Shown here in pieces: positions 3,260 to 35,258 of a DNA stretch of 53,944 bases. Below the pieces are notes generated by a model. The model was not told the origin of the DNA, searched no databases, and saw nothing but the letters and a program-made list of their open reading frames with translations. Location of the stretch: positions 1 through 53,944 of IMG/VR virus record IMGVR_UViG_3300005663_000055; one strand, 5' to 3'. Source of the DNA: a virus. Both the position numbers and the translations under genes were made by a program. Each line of letters opens with the position of its first letter. Within the stretch, counting starts at the first letter, position 1.

Positions 3260-3592
3260 TTAGTTCCTCCAGAGTTTGTAGTTAGAGAAGATCCGGCGAG
3301 TGTTGCCGTTGATCGGGGCCGTGGCGAGAGCCGTGGCCTCGTTGTCCCTGTCGGGCTCGATGAACAGGACGTGATCGATCCCGCGCCGCGTCAGCCTGCG
3401 CGCGGCTTCGGTTAGAGCTTCTTCATCAGGGACTGAGCAGATGACGACGGACGGGGTGTCGCGGTCGTCTTGTTCGGCAAAGAACTTGCCGGAGTCGAAA
3501 GCAGCGTGTACGGCCTGAACCGTTTGCTGTTCCGAGGGGAGGTCCGTGCGGACCAAAACATAAAAATGCCTATGGATCTATGGTTCTGACAT
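3260..3592 (-). CDS. PTH2-type peptidyl-tRNA hydrolase, in-frame amber at codon 5
   Basis: From about residue 11 the frame matches the PTH2 family: a first strand ending VLVRTDL, a helix with AVHAAF, a strand TPSVVICSV, helix EEALTEAARRL and a last strand TALATAPI. PTH2 enzymes cleave peptidyl-tRNA released by ribosomes and recycle the tRNA. The only good start is ATG at 3592, with GGAG 7 nt upstream, and from there the frame reads M-S-E-P-TAG-I-H-R-H-F-Y-V before entering the domain. A bypass would be a TTG at 3556 without a Shine-Dalgarno, inside the first beta strand. Full-length product therefore needs amber read-through (a CTA-anticodon tRNA is encoded at 8983) or the gene is broken. Length without the leader is about 105 aa, typical for PTH2. 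Confidence 0.75.
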
Positions 3593-3604
3593 GATACTTC
3601 TCCT

Positions 3605-3853
3605 CTACTGATGTTCGCTGGTCTTATCCGACCCGGAGCGACACCGCTCACCAAGATCAGGGCCAGCAAAGCTCCCCGATACTACATCGGGACGCCGTCC
3701 TCCTTGCGACGAATTGACGTCCTCGTCGAACTCGACACCTTCCGGGCCAACTATGAAGCTGAGTTCAATGTACTCAGACCAAATAGTGACCGGAATCACA
3801 ACCGTATCCGGAGCGGGAGAGTAGGCTTCACCGACATGGTACTTTCTAACCAC
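3605..3853 (-). CDS. hypothetical protein, 82 aa
   Basis: GTG at 3853 has GAGGAAG 5 nt upstream and overlaps the end of the preceding gene by 8 nt. The first half (beta-rich, VVIPVTIWSEYIELSFIVG) looks like a genuine folded segment. The second half is Gly, Ser and Arg rich and less convincing. It stops at TAG 12 nt before the ATG of the PTH2-like gene and in the same frame, so amber suppression would fuse the two. Confidence 0.55.
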   Translation of the reverse strand: MVRKYHVGEAYSPAPDTVVIPVTIWSEYIELSFIVGPEGVEFDEDVNSSQGGRRPDVVSGSFAGPDLGERCRSGSDKTSEHQ

Positions 3854-8982: not shown

Positions 8983-9059
8983 TGGCGCACCCGGAGGGAG
9001 TCGAACCCTCAACCCACGGTGCTAGAATCCGCGTGCTCGGCCAGTTGAGCTTCGGGTGC
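8983..9059 (-). tRNA. tRNA-Sup(CTA), predicted amber-reading tRNA
   Basis: Full cloverleaf: acceptor GCACCCG/CGGGTGC, D-arm GCTC/GAGC, T-arm GAGGG-TTCGACT-CCCTC, G73 and encoded CCA. The anticodon stem CGCGG/CCGTG encloses ATTCTAGCA. With the closing A-A opposition the 7-nt loop is TTCTAGC, with U33, anticodon CTA and G37, which reads UAG. The alternative register (anticodon TCT, Arg) would leave two mismatches in the stem. The amino acid carried is unknown. It lies apart from the main array, alone between two small genes. Confidence 0.75.
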
Positions 9060-9863: not shown

Positions 9864-10067
9864 TTAGCCTACGGCCTTGACGCCCTGGGCTTCCATGCCC
9901 TTGCGTCCCTGGGCCGCATCGAACTCGACCTTTTGGCCTTCGTCCAACTTCTTGAAGCCCTCCATGTCGATGTTCGAGTAGTGAATGAACAGGTCATCGC
10001 CGCCGTCATCCGGCGTGATGAACCCGAAACCTTTTGCCTCGTTAAACCACTTCACTGTTCCTGTCAC
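9864..10067 (-). CDS. cold-shock domain protein, 67 aa
   Basis: A complete CspA-type OB fold: [19 protein letters not shown] contains the RNP1 motif KGFGFI, and DLFIHYSNI is RNP2-like. These proteins bind single-stranded RNA or DNA and melt RNA structure. In a phage dense with structured RNA this could help translation or antitermination, which is inference. Length is standard for the family. GTG at 10067 overlaps the TGA of the preceding small ORF (GTGA). Confidence 0.95.
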
Positions 10068-12235: not shown

Positions 12236-12650
12236 TGGTGGAGATGGCGGGAATCGAACCCGCGTGTTGGTCTGCATCAAGCCATGCGTCTACGTGCGTA
12301 GCTACTTTAGAGTTTCCTCAAGCTGTAGCCGCTAGGGGCGCGGGTGTTACCCCGGCGCGTCCACCAGCCTGATACTTGTCAGACAAAGCAACCGGTCTTA
12401 CCGGCGTGCAGCCCTTGACCTTCCTCGCTATCCTGCGCTTGGCGAGGCGGGGTTATCCCGCGACGGTTAGACGCGAGAGAGAACCTTCCCACCCATAGGA
12501 GCAGGAGCGGAAGCCCAAAGAGCCTCCAAGTCCTCAACACTGTTTACAGTGTTGGCACTTGTGTTTTTGATCGATTTTTAACGAGGCCGCTCGATCAACC
12601 TCGGCACGCAACATCGACCTTCTTCAGCCAGTCGAAGCCATTTCATCCCC
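12236..12650 (-). ncRNA. ssrA: tmRNA (trans-translation RNA)
   Basis: The two ends form the tRNA-like domain. The 5' end is GGGGATG followed by the hallmark TGGCTTCGACTGG. The 3' end is CGGG-TTCGATT-CCCG, CATCTCC and encoded ACCA. 415 nt is a normal length. A single open frame begins GCC AAC ACT after a single-stranded A-rich stretch and stops at TAA, which lies in the loop of a 7-bp hairpin TCTCGCG/CGCGGGA, as expected for helix 5. The tag is unusual: 29 residues, beginning ANTVNSVEDLE and ending GGKVLSRV, without the ALAA degron. An 8-bp hairpin CAACACTG/CAGTGTTG lies over the first tag codons. Exact resume codon is inferred. Confidence 0.9.
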
Positions 12651-14188: not shown

Positions 14189-14262
14189 TGGAGCGGCCAC
14201 TGGGAGTCAAACCCAGGCTTCCGGATTACAAAACCGGCGTGCTGTCATAACACCTCAGCCGC
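14189..14262 (-). tRNA. tRNA-Thr(TGT)
   Basis: Acceptor GCGGCTG/TGGCCGC, anticodon stem CCGG/CCGG with a T-T closing opposition and loop TTTGTAA (TGT, codon ACA), T-loop TTTGACT, encoded CCA. The 5' end overlaps the stop of the 73-aa gene. Confidence 0.85.
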
Positions 14263-15197: not shown

Positions 15198-15278
15198 TGG
15201 TGCAAGGGGGAGGAGTTGAACCTCCGTCTCCTTCAGGCGGTTAGGCCATCAGGTGTTCTAGCGTTGAACTACCCCGGC
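15198..15278 (-). tRNA. tRNA-like gene, isotype unresolved
   Basis: D-arm GTTC-AACGCTA-GAAC, T-arm GGAGG-TTCAACT-CCTCC and CCA are sound. The acceptor GCCGGGG/CCCTTGC has a C-T mismatch. The 29 nt between the D- and T-arms contain no stem with a 7-nt U33 loop that I can defend. Confidence 0.5.
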
Positions 15279-15286
15279 ATTGTTCG

Positions 15287-15372
15287 TGTCCCAGTGGCCG
15301 GAATCGAACCGGCAACTCGCCGACCTATTGCGAGTCCGTCACGGCTTCGGCCCTGGTCTGAAGGCCACTATC
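15287..15372 (-). tRNA. tRNA-like gene, isotype unresolved
   Basis: T-arm GCCGG-TTCGATT-CCGGC and D-arm CTTC/GAAG are present. The acceptor pairs only five of seven and CCA is replaced by CAC. A strong hairpin ACTCGC-AATAGGTCG-GCGAGT stands where the anticodon arm would be, and an extra CCGTGACGG hairpin precedes it. Confidence 0.4.
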
Positions 15373-15404
15373 CTGGCCCAGGATTGCCGCACCGGGTCTG
15401 TTTT

Positions 15405-15474
15405 AGCGCGAGGGGATGGACTCGAACCATCGACCTCCTGCGTCGGGCACTTTACCGTTAAGCTATACACGCGC
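15405..15474 (-). tRNA. tRNA-like gene, possible anticodon AGG with C33
   Basis: T-arm GATGG-TTCGAGT-CCATC is good. The acceptor GCGCGTG/CCCTCGC has two mismatches and no CCA. CGAC/GTCG encloses GCAGGAG, which would be anticodon AGG (Pro) with C33 instead of U33. Confidence 0.4.
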
Positions 15475-15541
15475 TGCGTGCAGGCGGGGTCGAACCGCCA
15501 TCTCCACGTTCCAGGCGCTCTTCCAACTGAGCTACCCAAGC
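15475..15541 (-). tRNA. tRNA-like gene with shortened anticodon region
   Basis: Canonical D-arm GCTCAGTTGGAAGAGC and T-arm GGCGG-TTCGACC-CCGCC, acceptor five of seven paired, no CCA. Only 17 nt separate the D- and T-arms instead of about 23, too few for a normal anticodon arm plus variable loop. Confidence 0.4.
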
Positions 15542-15547
15542 GTATTC

Positions 15548-15628
15548 TGGTGGCAAGGGGTGGAATTGAACCACCGACCTTCCTCAGACCGAAGTCATCC
15601 GGCTGCTCTTTCTCTGAGCTACCTTGCC
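15548..15628 (-). tRNA. tRNA-like gene with UUCG hairpin in place of the anticodon arm
   Basis: Perfect acceptor GGCAAGG/CCTTGCC, D-arm GCTC/GAGC, T-arm GGTGG-TTCAATT-CCACC, A73 and CCA. Where the anticodon arm belongs there is GAC-TTCG-GTC flanked by weakly pairing sequence. No clean 7-nt loop can be drawn. Confidence 0.45.
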
Positions 15629-16663: not shown

Positions 16664-16739
16664 TGGTAGCCGAGGTGGGTGCTGCCCCCACTGCCTCCTG
16701 CACGTCAAGCAGGCGCTCTAACTGGTGAGCTACTCGACT
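16664..16739 (-). tRNA. tRNA-Val(GAC) with unusual T-loop
   Basis: Perfect acceptor AGTCGAG/CTCGGCT, D-arm GCTC/GAGC, perfect anticodon stem CCTGC/GCAGG with loop TTGACGT (GAC, codon GTC), encoded CCA. The T-stem GTGGG/CCCAC encloses GGCAGCA instead of TTCGAAT. Confidence 0.7.
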
Positions 16740-33241: not shown

Positions 33242-34252
33242 CTACACTGGGCCACCGCACGCACGGTATGCGCCAGCCGGGAGCTTCCAGTCACTAATAA
33301 TGACCTCGTCGCGGGGGTAGTGCTTGCCCACGGCGATCTCACGCTGGTGATCCTCACTGGTGATCTGCTCGAAGACCGCGCCCCGATCAGCCTGCTCGCG
33401 GATGCTCAGCTTGCGCTGGATCGTCGTCTCGAACTCGGCCTCGTAGCCAGCGACCTTCTCGAAGCGCTGGGGGTCGAGGGCACGGACGCTGGCCCACTGG
33501 TCCTTGTTGCCGAAGATGCAGGCGAGGCAGGATGCGCGGCCCCAGCCCAGGTGGTAGCACGGGTGCGGGTTGATGCTGAAGTCCTTGGTGATGTCCCAGA
33601 CCTGCTGCTCGGTCCACTGGTGGATCGCGCGCCACTGGTGTACTTCGCGGCGGCGCGTCGAGTTGATAACCTCGGCGGTGTTGTAGTTCGCGCGGGCCGT
33701 GCTCTCCTCGGCGCGCTCTCCGGTCACGAGCAGGACCTTGACCTGCTGATCCAGTTCGCCCTTGAACTCGGCGTTGATGACACGGCGGGCGACGTCGATC
33801 TTCAGGTAGGCGGAGCACCAGCGGACGGACAGGTCGGCGCTGACCTGGGGGAACTTGCGGCGGGTGCCAGCCTTGCCGGACTTGCCCGGCGCAAGGTAGC
33901 AGATCTCGTCGGAGCCGTCGCGGGCCTCGTACTTGACGCCCTTCGTCGTCTCGTTCTCGCGGAGCATCTCGCCCTCGAAGCCGCCGACCTTCCACTGGAA
34001 GTAGATGGGCAGGTCCAGGGCCTCGGCGACCGCGCGGCAGTAGTCCGGCGTGATCGCCCAATCCATCAGTTCGCTGCCTTCGCGGCCGTCAATGTCGTGG
34101 TGCCAGAGTTCGATCTTGTCCTTCACTTCGGGGTACTCGCGGAGCAGCTTCAGGACGCAGGCCAGCGAGTCCTTGCCACCAGAGAAGCCGACGATGATGT
34201 GGTCGTACTCGGTCGGGTCGATGGCGCGGGTGATGGGCTGACTCTTAGGCAT
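33242..34252 (-). CDS. PAPS-reductase/DndC-like PP-loop protein, 336 aa
   Basis: PP-loop VGFSGGKDSLA at residues 21-31, WHHDIDGRE, RWCSAYLKI, TGERAEESTARA and a CxxC in RASCLACIFGNKDQW are features of the phosphoadenosine phosphosulfate reductase family. Phage members have unknown substrates; possibilities are sulfur transfer to DNA or tRNA or assimilatory reduction. The ATG at 34252 has GGAG upstream. It sits alone between accessory genes with its own promoter region at 34268-34300. Confidence 0.82.
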   Translation of the reverse strand: MPKSQPITRAIDPTEYDHIIVGFSGGKDSLACVLKLLREYPEVKDKIELWHHDIDGREGSELMDWAITPDYCRAVAEALDLPIYFQWKVGGFEGEMLRENETTKGVKYEARDGSDEICYLAPGKSGKAGTRRKFPQVSADLSVRWCSAYLKIDVARRVINAEFKGELDQQVKVLLVTGERAEESTARANYNTAEVINSTRRREVHQWRAIHQWTEQQVWDITKDFSINPHPCYHLGWGRASCLACIFGNKDQWASVRALDPQRFEKVAGYEAEFETTIQRKLSIREQADRGAVFEQITSEDHQREIAVGKHYPRDEVIISDWKLPAGAYRACGGPV

Positions 34253-35230: not shown

Positions 35231-35258
35231 CTCGTATTATCGGATTCAGCTACCCTTT
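35231..35258 (-). promoter_or_regulatory. promoter TGGACA-17-GATAAT of the DUF932 gene
   Basis: The minus strand reads TGGACA, AAAGGGTAGCTGAATCC, GATAAT. This is the best fit of the recurring AATCCGATAAT motif to a standard promoter, about 60 nt upstream of the gene. Confidence 0.65.

Follow-up and report, generated by a model that had tools for sequence, protein, structure and literature searches.

The viral DNA analysed here, IMG/VR record IMGVR_UViG_3300005663_000055 (53,944 nucleotides, in the following called the window), encodes a tRNA whose anticodon is best read as CTA, and on the same strand a gene for a protein resembling peptidyl-tRNA hydrolase 2 (PTH2) that carries an in-frame amber codon shortly after its start. 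A preliminary description of the window had pointed out the tRNA and did not identify a target of suppression; the amber-starting PTH2-like gene was found in the present analysis. We consider it very likely that the suppressor tRNA mainly serves to switch on this amber-gated gene, the two elements forming a two-part cassette.

The association of the two elements emerged from a clustering of all open reading frames (ORFs) across loci with CTA, Arg-TCT and Trp tRNAs that had been fetched with comparable patterns. The top-ranked CTA-specific ORF family was the PTH2-like family, with members at 23/65 CTA loci vs 2/170 control loci (p=1e-12), and the sole control matches, L048 and L072, also carry CTA tRNAs. 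A profile search detected a PTH2-like ORF in 39 of the 66 viral loci with CTA tRNAs and in none of the 163 loci with other tRNAs, using a profile that was built from PTH2 members near CTA tRNAs and that could miss a very divergent PTH2 at a control locus. The numbers were 29/50 vs 0/113 after dereplication of the loci (p=6e-19), and 22/30 vs 0/106 when only loci with at least three tRNAs were counted. In all 39 cases, the PTH2-like ORF lies on the strand of the CTA tRNA, and 32 of these ORFs lie within about 0.7 kb of it. Furthermore, a reciprocal protein search without any tRNA criterion led to Cane17, Myrna, Arash, ME3, CBB, XbC2 and the uncultured-phage records LR756500 and LR756501, which all have a CTA tRNA on the same strand at a distance of less than 4 kb; the PTH2 of the last two records is amber-interrupted, and an amber precedes the PTH2 domain in 12 of the 14 records that this search found, among them the isolates Cane17, Myrna, Arash, ME3, CBB, XbC2, XacN1 and RAS14. 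In RAS14, the CTA tRNA is encoded elsewhere in the genome and not beside PTH2, and two CTA tRNAs are likewise encoded elsewhere in the genome of XacN1 (PMC5852040). The two remaining records, of the RaK2 type, have an uninterrupted PTH2, and ARAGORN detected no CTA tRNA in the stretches of them that were examined; tRNA typing was partial for LR756504 and LR756511. In public records, CTA tRNAs are labelled otherwise, as tRNA-Ser in Myrna (L287:7463-7534), as tRNA-Phe in Arash (L289:8295-8369), and as tRNA-OTHER in Cane17 (L288:7601-7673). We found no report of a link between CTA tRNAs and PTH2 in the open-licence literature.

Most of the PTH2-like genes share a characteristic beginning, in which a start codon is followed by zero to four codons, an in-frame TAG and then the conserved first strand of the PTH2 domain. 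In the window, the leader reads GAGGAG-7nt-ATG-TCA-GAA-CCA-TAG-ATC-CAT-AGG-CAT-TTT-TAT-GTT, with the ATG counted from position 3592 downwards. Other examples are ATG-ACG-TAG-ATT (L091), ATG-TTG-TAG-ATT (L033), ATG-TAG-GTG (Cane17), ATG-ACT-TAG-ATT (ME3), ATG-GCA-CAA-TAG-AAT (CBB) and ATG-AAG-TAG-ACC (XacN1 and RAS14). Such a start-near amber was present ahead of the PTH2 domain in 31 of 54 scored members vs 36 of 820 control genes from these loci (p=4e-24), and the early in-frame amber is kept in 29 distinct members of the dereplicated family. A purine after UAG favours suppression over termination, and a purine follows the amber in all 29 dereplicated cases, compared with 45 of the 81 TAGs that terminate genes at these loci (p=1.3e-6). 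A generic scan of the window returned the PTH2 leader as the sole start-near TAG preceded by an ATG and a ribosome-binding site (RBS); a GTG-TAG start at 35231 was rejected, as the gene downstream of it has an RBS and an ATG of its own. We define as a suppressor-gated PTH2 cassette the combination of a start codon, zero to four codons, TAG, a purine and an in-frame PTH2 domain, together with a CTA tRNA encoded on the same strand of that genome, and the window contains all of these components (Table 1).

Table 1. Positions of the cassette components and of further features in the window
Feature	Position	Strand	Basis or remark
tRNA predicted to read amber, anticodon CTA	8983..9059	(-)	ARAGORN, Rfam, alignments to tRNA-Trp(CCA) and viral CTA tRNAs
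PTH2-like (peptidyl-tRNA hydrolase 2) gene	3260..3592	(-)	ATG to TAA, 110 codons if amber is sense
In-frame amber TAG, codon 5 of the PTH2-like gene	3578..3580	(-)	ATG TCA GAA CCA TAG ATC
Shine-Dalgarno GAGGAG, 7 nt 5' of the ATG preceding the amber	3600..3605	(-)	sequence
tmRNA (ribosome rescue), possible partner in the rescue theme	12236..12650	(-)	Rfam RF00023, 120 bits
Small cold-shock-like protein	9864..10067	(-)	homologues in three CTA loci
tRNA-Thr(TGT)	14189..14262	(-)	U31.U39 mismatch, not called by ARAGORN
Four tRNA-like sequences	15198..15628	(-)	altered anticodon arms
Weak tRNA-Sec-like match	15290..15396		
tRNA-Val(GAC)-like gene	16664..16739	(-)	non-canonical T-loop GGCAGCA
PAPS reductase-like gene	33242..34252	(-)	

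This arrangement could also be explained without any readthrough, if ATG-NNN-TAG were a leader minigene, PTH2 synthesis began after it by reinitiation or at an AUU or UUG codon, and the tRNA acted elsewhere. The codon after the TAG is indeed often ATT, ATA or ATC, it is GTG in Cane17 and Myrna, and a TTG follows seven codons past the TAG in the window. However, AAC, AAT, ACC, GGC and GTT are also found at the position after the TAG, and in most members no further ATG, GTG or TTG precedes the first conserved strand. Moreover, the interrupting stop is nearly always TAG rather than TAA or TGA, and the gene accompanies CTA tRNAs and not other tRNAs, and we therefore regard internal initiation as improbable. 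Some annotated starts lie behind the amber: the annotated PTH2 frames of XacN1 (ORF364, L281 around 6000) and Cane17 (L288:6977) skip the upstream ATG and the amber, and that of Cane17 is annotated to start directly after the amber. The start sites of the XacN1 ORF364 and L288:6977 genes are probably mis-annotated.

The assignment to PTH2 is based on sequence profiles and on structure prediction. The window gene was assigned to PF01981 (PTH2), for which it alone scores just under the Pfam cut-off (22.1 vs 23 bits), and 13 of 17 family members match Pfam PTH2, the best with 8e-11. A profile search of the PDB returned the peptidyl-tRNA hydrolase structures 24bt and 2zv3. An AlphaFold2 model has a pLDDT of 92, and the top Foldseek matches are archaeal and human PTH2 (TM 0.77), so that fold and profile both point to PTH2. 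In L143, L146, L123, L095, XacN1 and RAS14, the PTH2-like domain carries an N-terminal extension, and in XacN1 and RAS14 the amber, which follows ATG-AAG, lies upstream of this extension.

As to the tRNA, ARAGORN called a tRNA-Pyl(cta) of 77 nt with an encoded CCA, and the Rfam tRNA model scored 44.8 bits (cut-off 29), so that the tRNA of the preliminary description is genuine. Its letters are GCACCCG AA GCTC AACTGGCC GAGC A C GCGGA TTCTAGC ACCGT, continuing with GGGTT GAGGG TTCGACT CCCTC CGGGTGC G CCA. The cloverleaf had been described as complete, and this holds for the acceptor (7/7), D (4/4) and T (5/5) arms and for the CCA, but not for the anticodon region, where an extra C at 26/27, between the D-stem and the anticodon stem, makes the tRNA 1 nt longer than canonical, and where A31 and A39 are mismatched. 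U33 is present, position 20 is C, and the discriminator is G73. Because of the extra C and the A31·A39 mismatch, the minimum free energy (MFE) structure of RNAfold shows a 5-bp anticodon stem with a 9-nt loop, AUUCUAGCA.

This loop is one of the reasons to consider that the tRNA could be a tRNA-Arg(TCT) that gained two bases in its anticodon loop and decodes AGA or induces frameshifting. Arg-TCT tRNAs are also the top raw BLAST matches of the window tRNA, with the same 5' spacing to TTCTA, so that other criteria were needed to rule out TCT. When the loop is drawn with 7 nt, the CTA register (GCGGA TTCTAGC ACCGT) forms 4/5 stem pairs and the TCT register 3/5, in agreement with the preliminary description, and ARAGORN called CTA and not TCT. 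Our IMG/VR pattern scans yielded 41 scorable Arg-TCT and 55 scorable CTA tRNAs, plus about 540 others. Of the viral Arg-TCT tRNAs, 38/41 carry A20, whereas the window tRNA and 14/55 CTA tRNAs carry C20, and a 31–39 mismatch occurs in only 1/41 Arg-TCT tRNAs. The window tRNA thus lacks the identity base A20 and a 7-nt loop that presents TCT on a paired stem. On the 3' side, its spacing corresponds to that of CTA tRNAs, and its D-arm and GCGGATTC agree with the tRNA-Trp(CCA) of contig L060 when a one-base gap is allowed. An arginine tRNA with an enlarged loop is therefore quite unlikely, and the sequence comparisons favour the CTA reading.

The window tRNA is most closely related to phage tRNA-Trp(CCA) and to the other CTA tRNAs of viruses. 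In the gapped alignment with the L060 tRNA-Trp(CCA), GAAGCTCAACTGGCCGAGCA is identical as well as GCGGATTC, and the D-arm, the 5' anticodon strand and G73 are as in phage tRNA-Trp(CCA), while A1-U72 is not kept. The tRNA is thus probably a tRNA-Trp(CCA) that was altered at position 35 to CUA. Two approaches were abandoned in this classification: a search pattern copying the exact loop ATTCTAGCA gave chance matches, and a masked nearest-neighbour classification was biased by the patterns used for fetching the sequences. An apparent CTA-specific excess of 31–39 mismatches was also discarded, as it was mostly accounted for by control tRNA-Trp(CCA) retrieved with the same search pattern (32/44 vs 26/53, p=0.02); the mismatch is mostly a common trait of U32 Trp-like tRNAs, and we did not use it as evidence of function. 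Among the viral tRNA-Trp(CCA) with U32 (L157-L275), 26/53 have the mismatch and thereby a 4-bp anticodon stem that is open at the bottom, and viral Thr(CGT) tRNAs often lack the 31–39 pair as well (5/7). Bacterial tRNAs with 4-bp anticodon stems, mainly Trp(CCA) unpinned at the top, have been described without mention of phages (PMC13092985). The window tRNA resembles them with its unpaired 31–39 position, which lies at the bottom of the stem, and with a loop larger by 2 nt; bottom-open 4-bp stems of the U32 viral Trp(CCA) type were set aside by this 2026 survey.

The tRNA might further be a degenerating copy or a decoy, such as a bait for anticodon nucleases, in which case its co-occurrence with PTH2 would be incidental. 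Phage tRNAs that evade nucleases by anticodon-loop changes have been described (PMC10264068), and other tRNAs of the window, at 15198-15628, have broken anticodon arms. Two of the four sequences in this region are 66-67 nt long with only 17 nt between the D and T arms, one has an 18-nt insert that forms a longer hairpin, and the fourth has a loop of 4 nt; by their appearance, these are tRNAs that decayed or were repurposed. In the CTA tRNA, in contrast, the remaining arms are perfectly paired and the CCA is retained, and the CTA tRNA, PTH2 and the amber are kept together across many distant phages. We therefore give the decoy explanation little chance.

The presence of a CTA tRNA could also indicate genome-wide recoding with TAG as Gln (code 15), and some neighbouring ORFs of the window do fuse in frame across a TAG. 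The gene structure already contradicts this. Among 40 genes called conservatively by codon usage, 14 end with TAA, 13 with TGA and 13 with TAG, which is consistent with the earlier count of about 17 of 56 genes, and TAG closes essential genes. No internal TAG occurs in the long conserved genes of the window, and no coding signal was detected past terminal TAGs, where the sequence scores as non-coding, as it does past TGA and TAA. In-frame genes downstream of terminal TAGs mostly have their own start and RBS, for which reason the TAG-then-in-frame-gene arrangements at the exonuclease, tape measure and baseplate genes were rejected as readthrough fusions. Short loci gave no useful signal when coding density was used to test for recoding. 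On this evidence, the window phage is not recoded and keeps the standard code, and recoding is practically out of the question. The earlier proposal that partial or conditional suppression is likelier than reassignment agrees with these sequence data.

Several points weigh against an amber-gated PTH2 as the object of the tRNA. In the window, a distance of 5.4 kb, occupied by a helicase gene and others, separates the tRNA from the PTH2-like gene. At some CTA loci the PTH2 is uninterrupted (L092, L108 and L048), at others it is absent, and DLP5 has a CTA tRNA and no PTH2. The extra nucleotide and the A.A mismatch make the suppression efficiency of the window tRNA uncertain, and a G37 after A36, as it has, is rare in CTA tRNAs (5/55). 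Finally, the lysine of the N-terminal GK motif of PTH2 is catalytic, and in most phage members the GK-motif lysines of cellular PTH2 have given way to Q or to another residue; the window protein and the majority of the others have Q at the aligned site, and GK is retained in L039, L097 and L126. Enzyme activity is uncertain because most phage members lack these lysines, and activity of the phage PTH2-like protein can be regarded as likely, not certain.

From the linkage and from the conserved position and context of the amber, we infer that the codon is read through; the product would act as an enzyme, and the arrangement would be regulatory. A UAG one to five codons past the start closes the PTH2-like frame, and release factor 1 (RF1) would normally terminate there, giving only a very short peptide. 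If the phage tRNA-CUA outcompeted RF1, the ribosome would go on and the PTH2-like protein would be made; by analogy with E. coli su+7, the amino acid inserted at the amber may be Gln or Trp. The rest of the phage would use the standard code, and its UAG stops would be tolerated because suppression is partial. The PTH2-like protein would most likely hydrolyse the peptidyl-tRNAs of ribosomes that had run past stops or dropped off the message, so that a rescue enzyme would be produced only during suppression or upon RF1 failure, and it would work alongside the tmRNA encoded in the window. Minigenes of the lambda bar kind cause peptidyl-tRNA drop-off. The frame of one to five codons closed by UAG is a minigene of this drop-off type, and a hydrolase gene behind it would therefore be a fitting sensor. 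We tentatively propose that in many phage lineages the competition of tRNA-CUA with RF1 could serve as such a sensor, with PTH2 limiting the damage of suppression in a self-balancing loop. PTH2 would then be made when UAG termination fails or suppression is high, for example when a host defence depletes termination or tRNAs.

The window itself, a fragment of 54 kb, belongs to an orphan lineage for which no close relative was found. IMG/VR single-protein scans with the helicase and the DNA polymerase revealed no relatives, and a polymerase-motif scan gave kin of only ~25% identity. The DNA polymerase is about 25% identical to that of SPO1-like phages, and the baseplate wedge is T4-like.

The proposed cassette has parallels in known systems. 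The E. coli suppressor su+7 is a tRNA-Trp whose CCA anticodon was changed to CUA by a C35U exchange. The window tRNA would be of the same origin, and here it is natural, phage-borne and gene-linked. The host gene prfB, encoding RF2, is autoregulated via an early in-frame stop codon, with +1 frameshifting at UGA. The PTH2-like gene would likewise be a termination-related gene that is expressed only upon failure to stop at an early stop codon, but by means of a dedicated suppressor tRNA and not by frameshifting. With respect to the protein, peptidyl-tRNA hydrolases of the same family are annotated in cluster C mycobacteriophages and have been proposed to function in ribosome rescue, according to overview passages of PMC7824862, and these passages contain no mention of an amber codon or a linked CTA tRNA. 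By implication, the annotated PTH2 gene starts of cluster C mycobacteriophages would be wrong, and UAG would be used as sense in a gene-specific manner in standard-code viruses, these well-studied isolates included.

CUA suppressor tRNAs have been reported for the standard-code phages XacN1 (PMC5852040), RsoM2USA (PMC8504454) and Summit (PMC9022506), and the window phage resembles these in encoding a tRNA-CUA while TAG is a normal stop. The purpose of such tRNAs had been without a known answer, as target searches for XacN1 and Summit had failed (PMC5852040, PMC9022506). Unlike in these reports, a target is proposed here, and XacN1 itself (L281) has ATG-AAG-TAG before its PTH2-like frame. A conserved amber-gated gene beside the tRNA is a concrete and testable target, and it would explain how a phage in which UAG closes a third of the genes can harbour an amber suppressor. 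In code-15 phages, such as crAss-like and Lak phages (PMC9523058, PMC13037316), a tRNA-CUA also reads UAG, but there UAG is needed as sense genome-wide, whereas in the case described here a single gene would rely on it.
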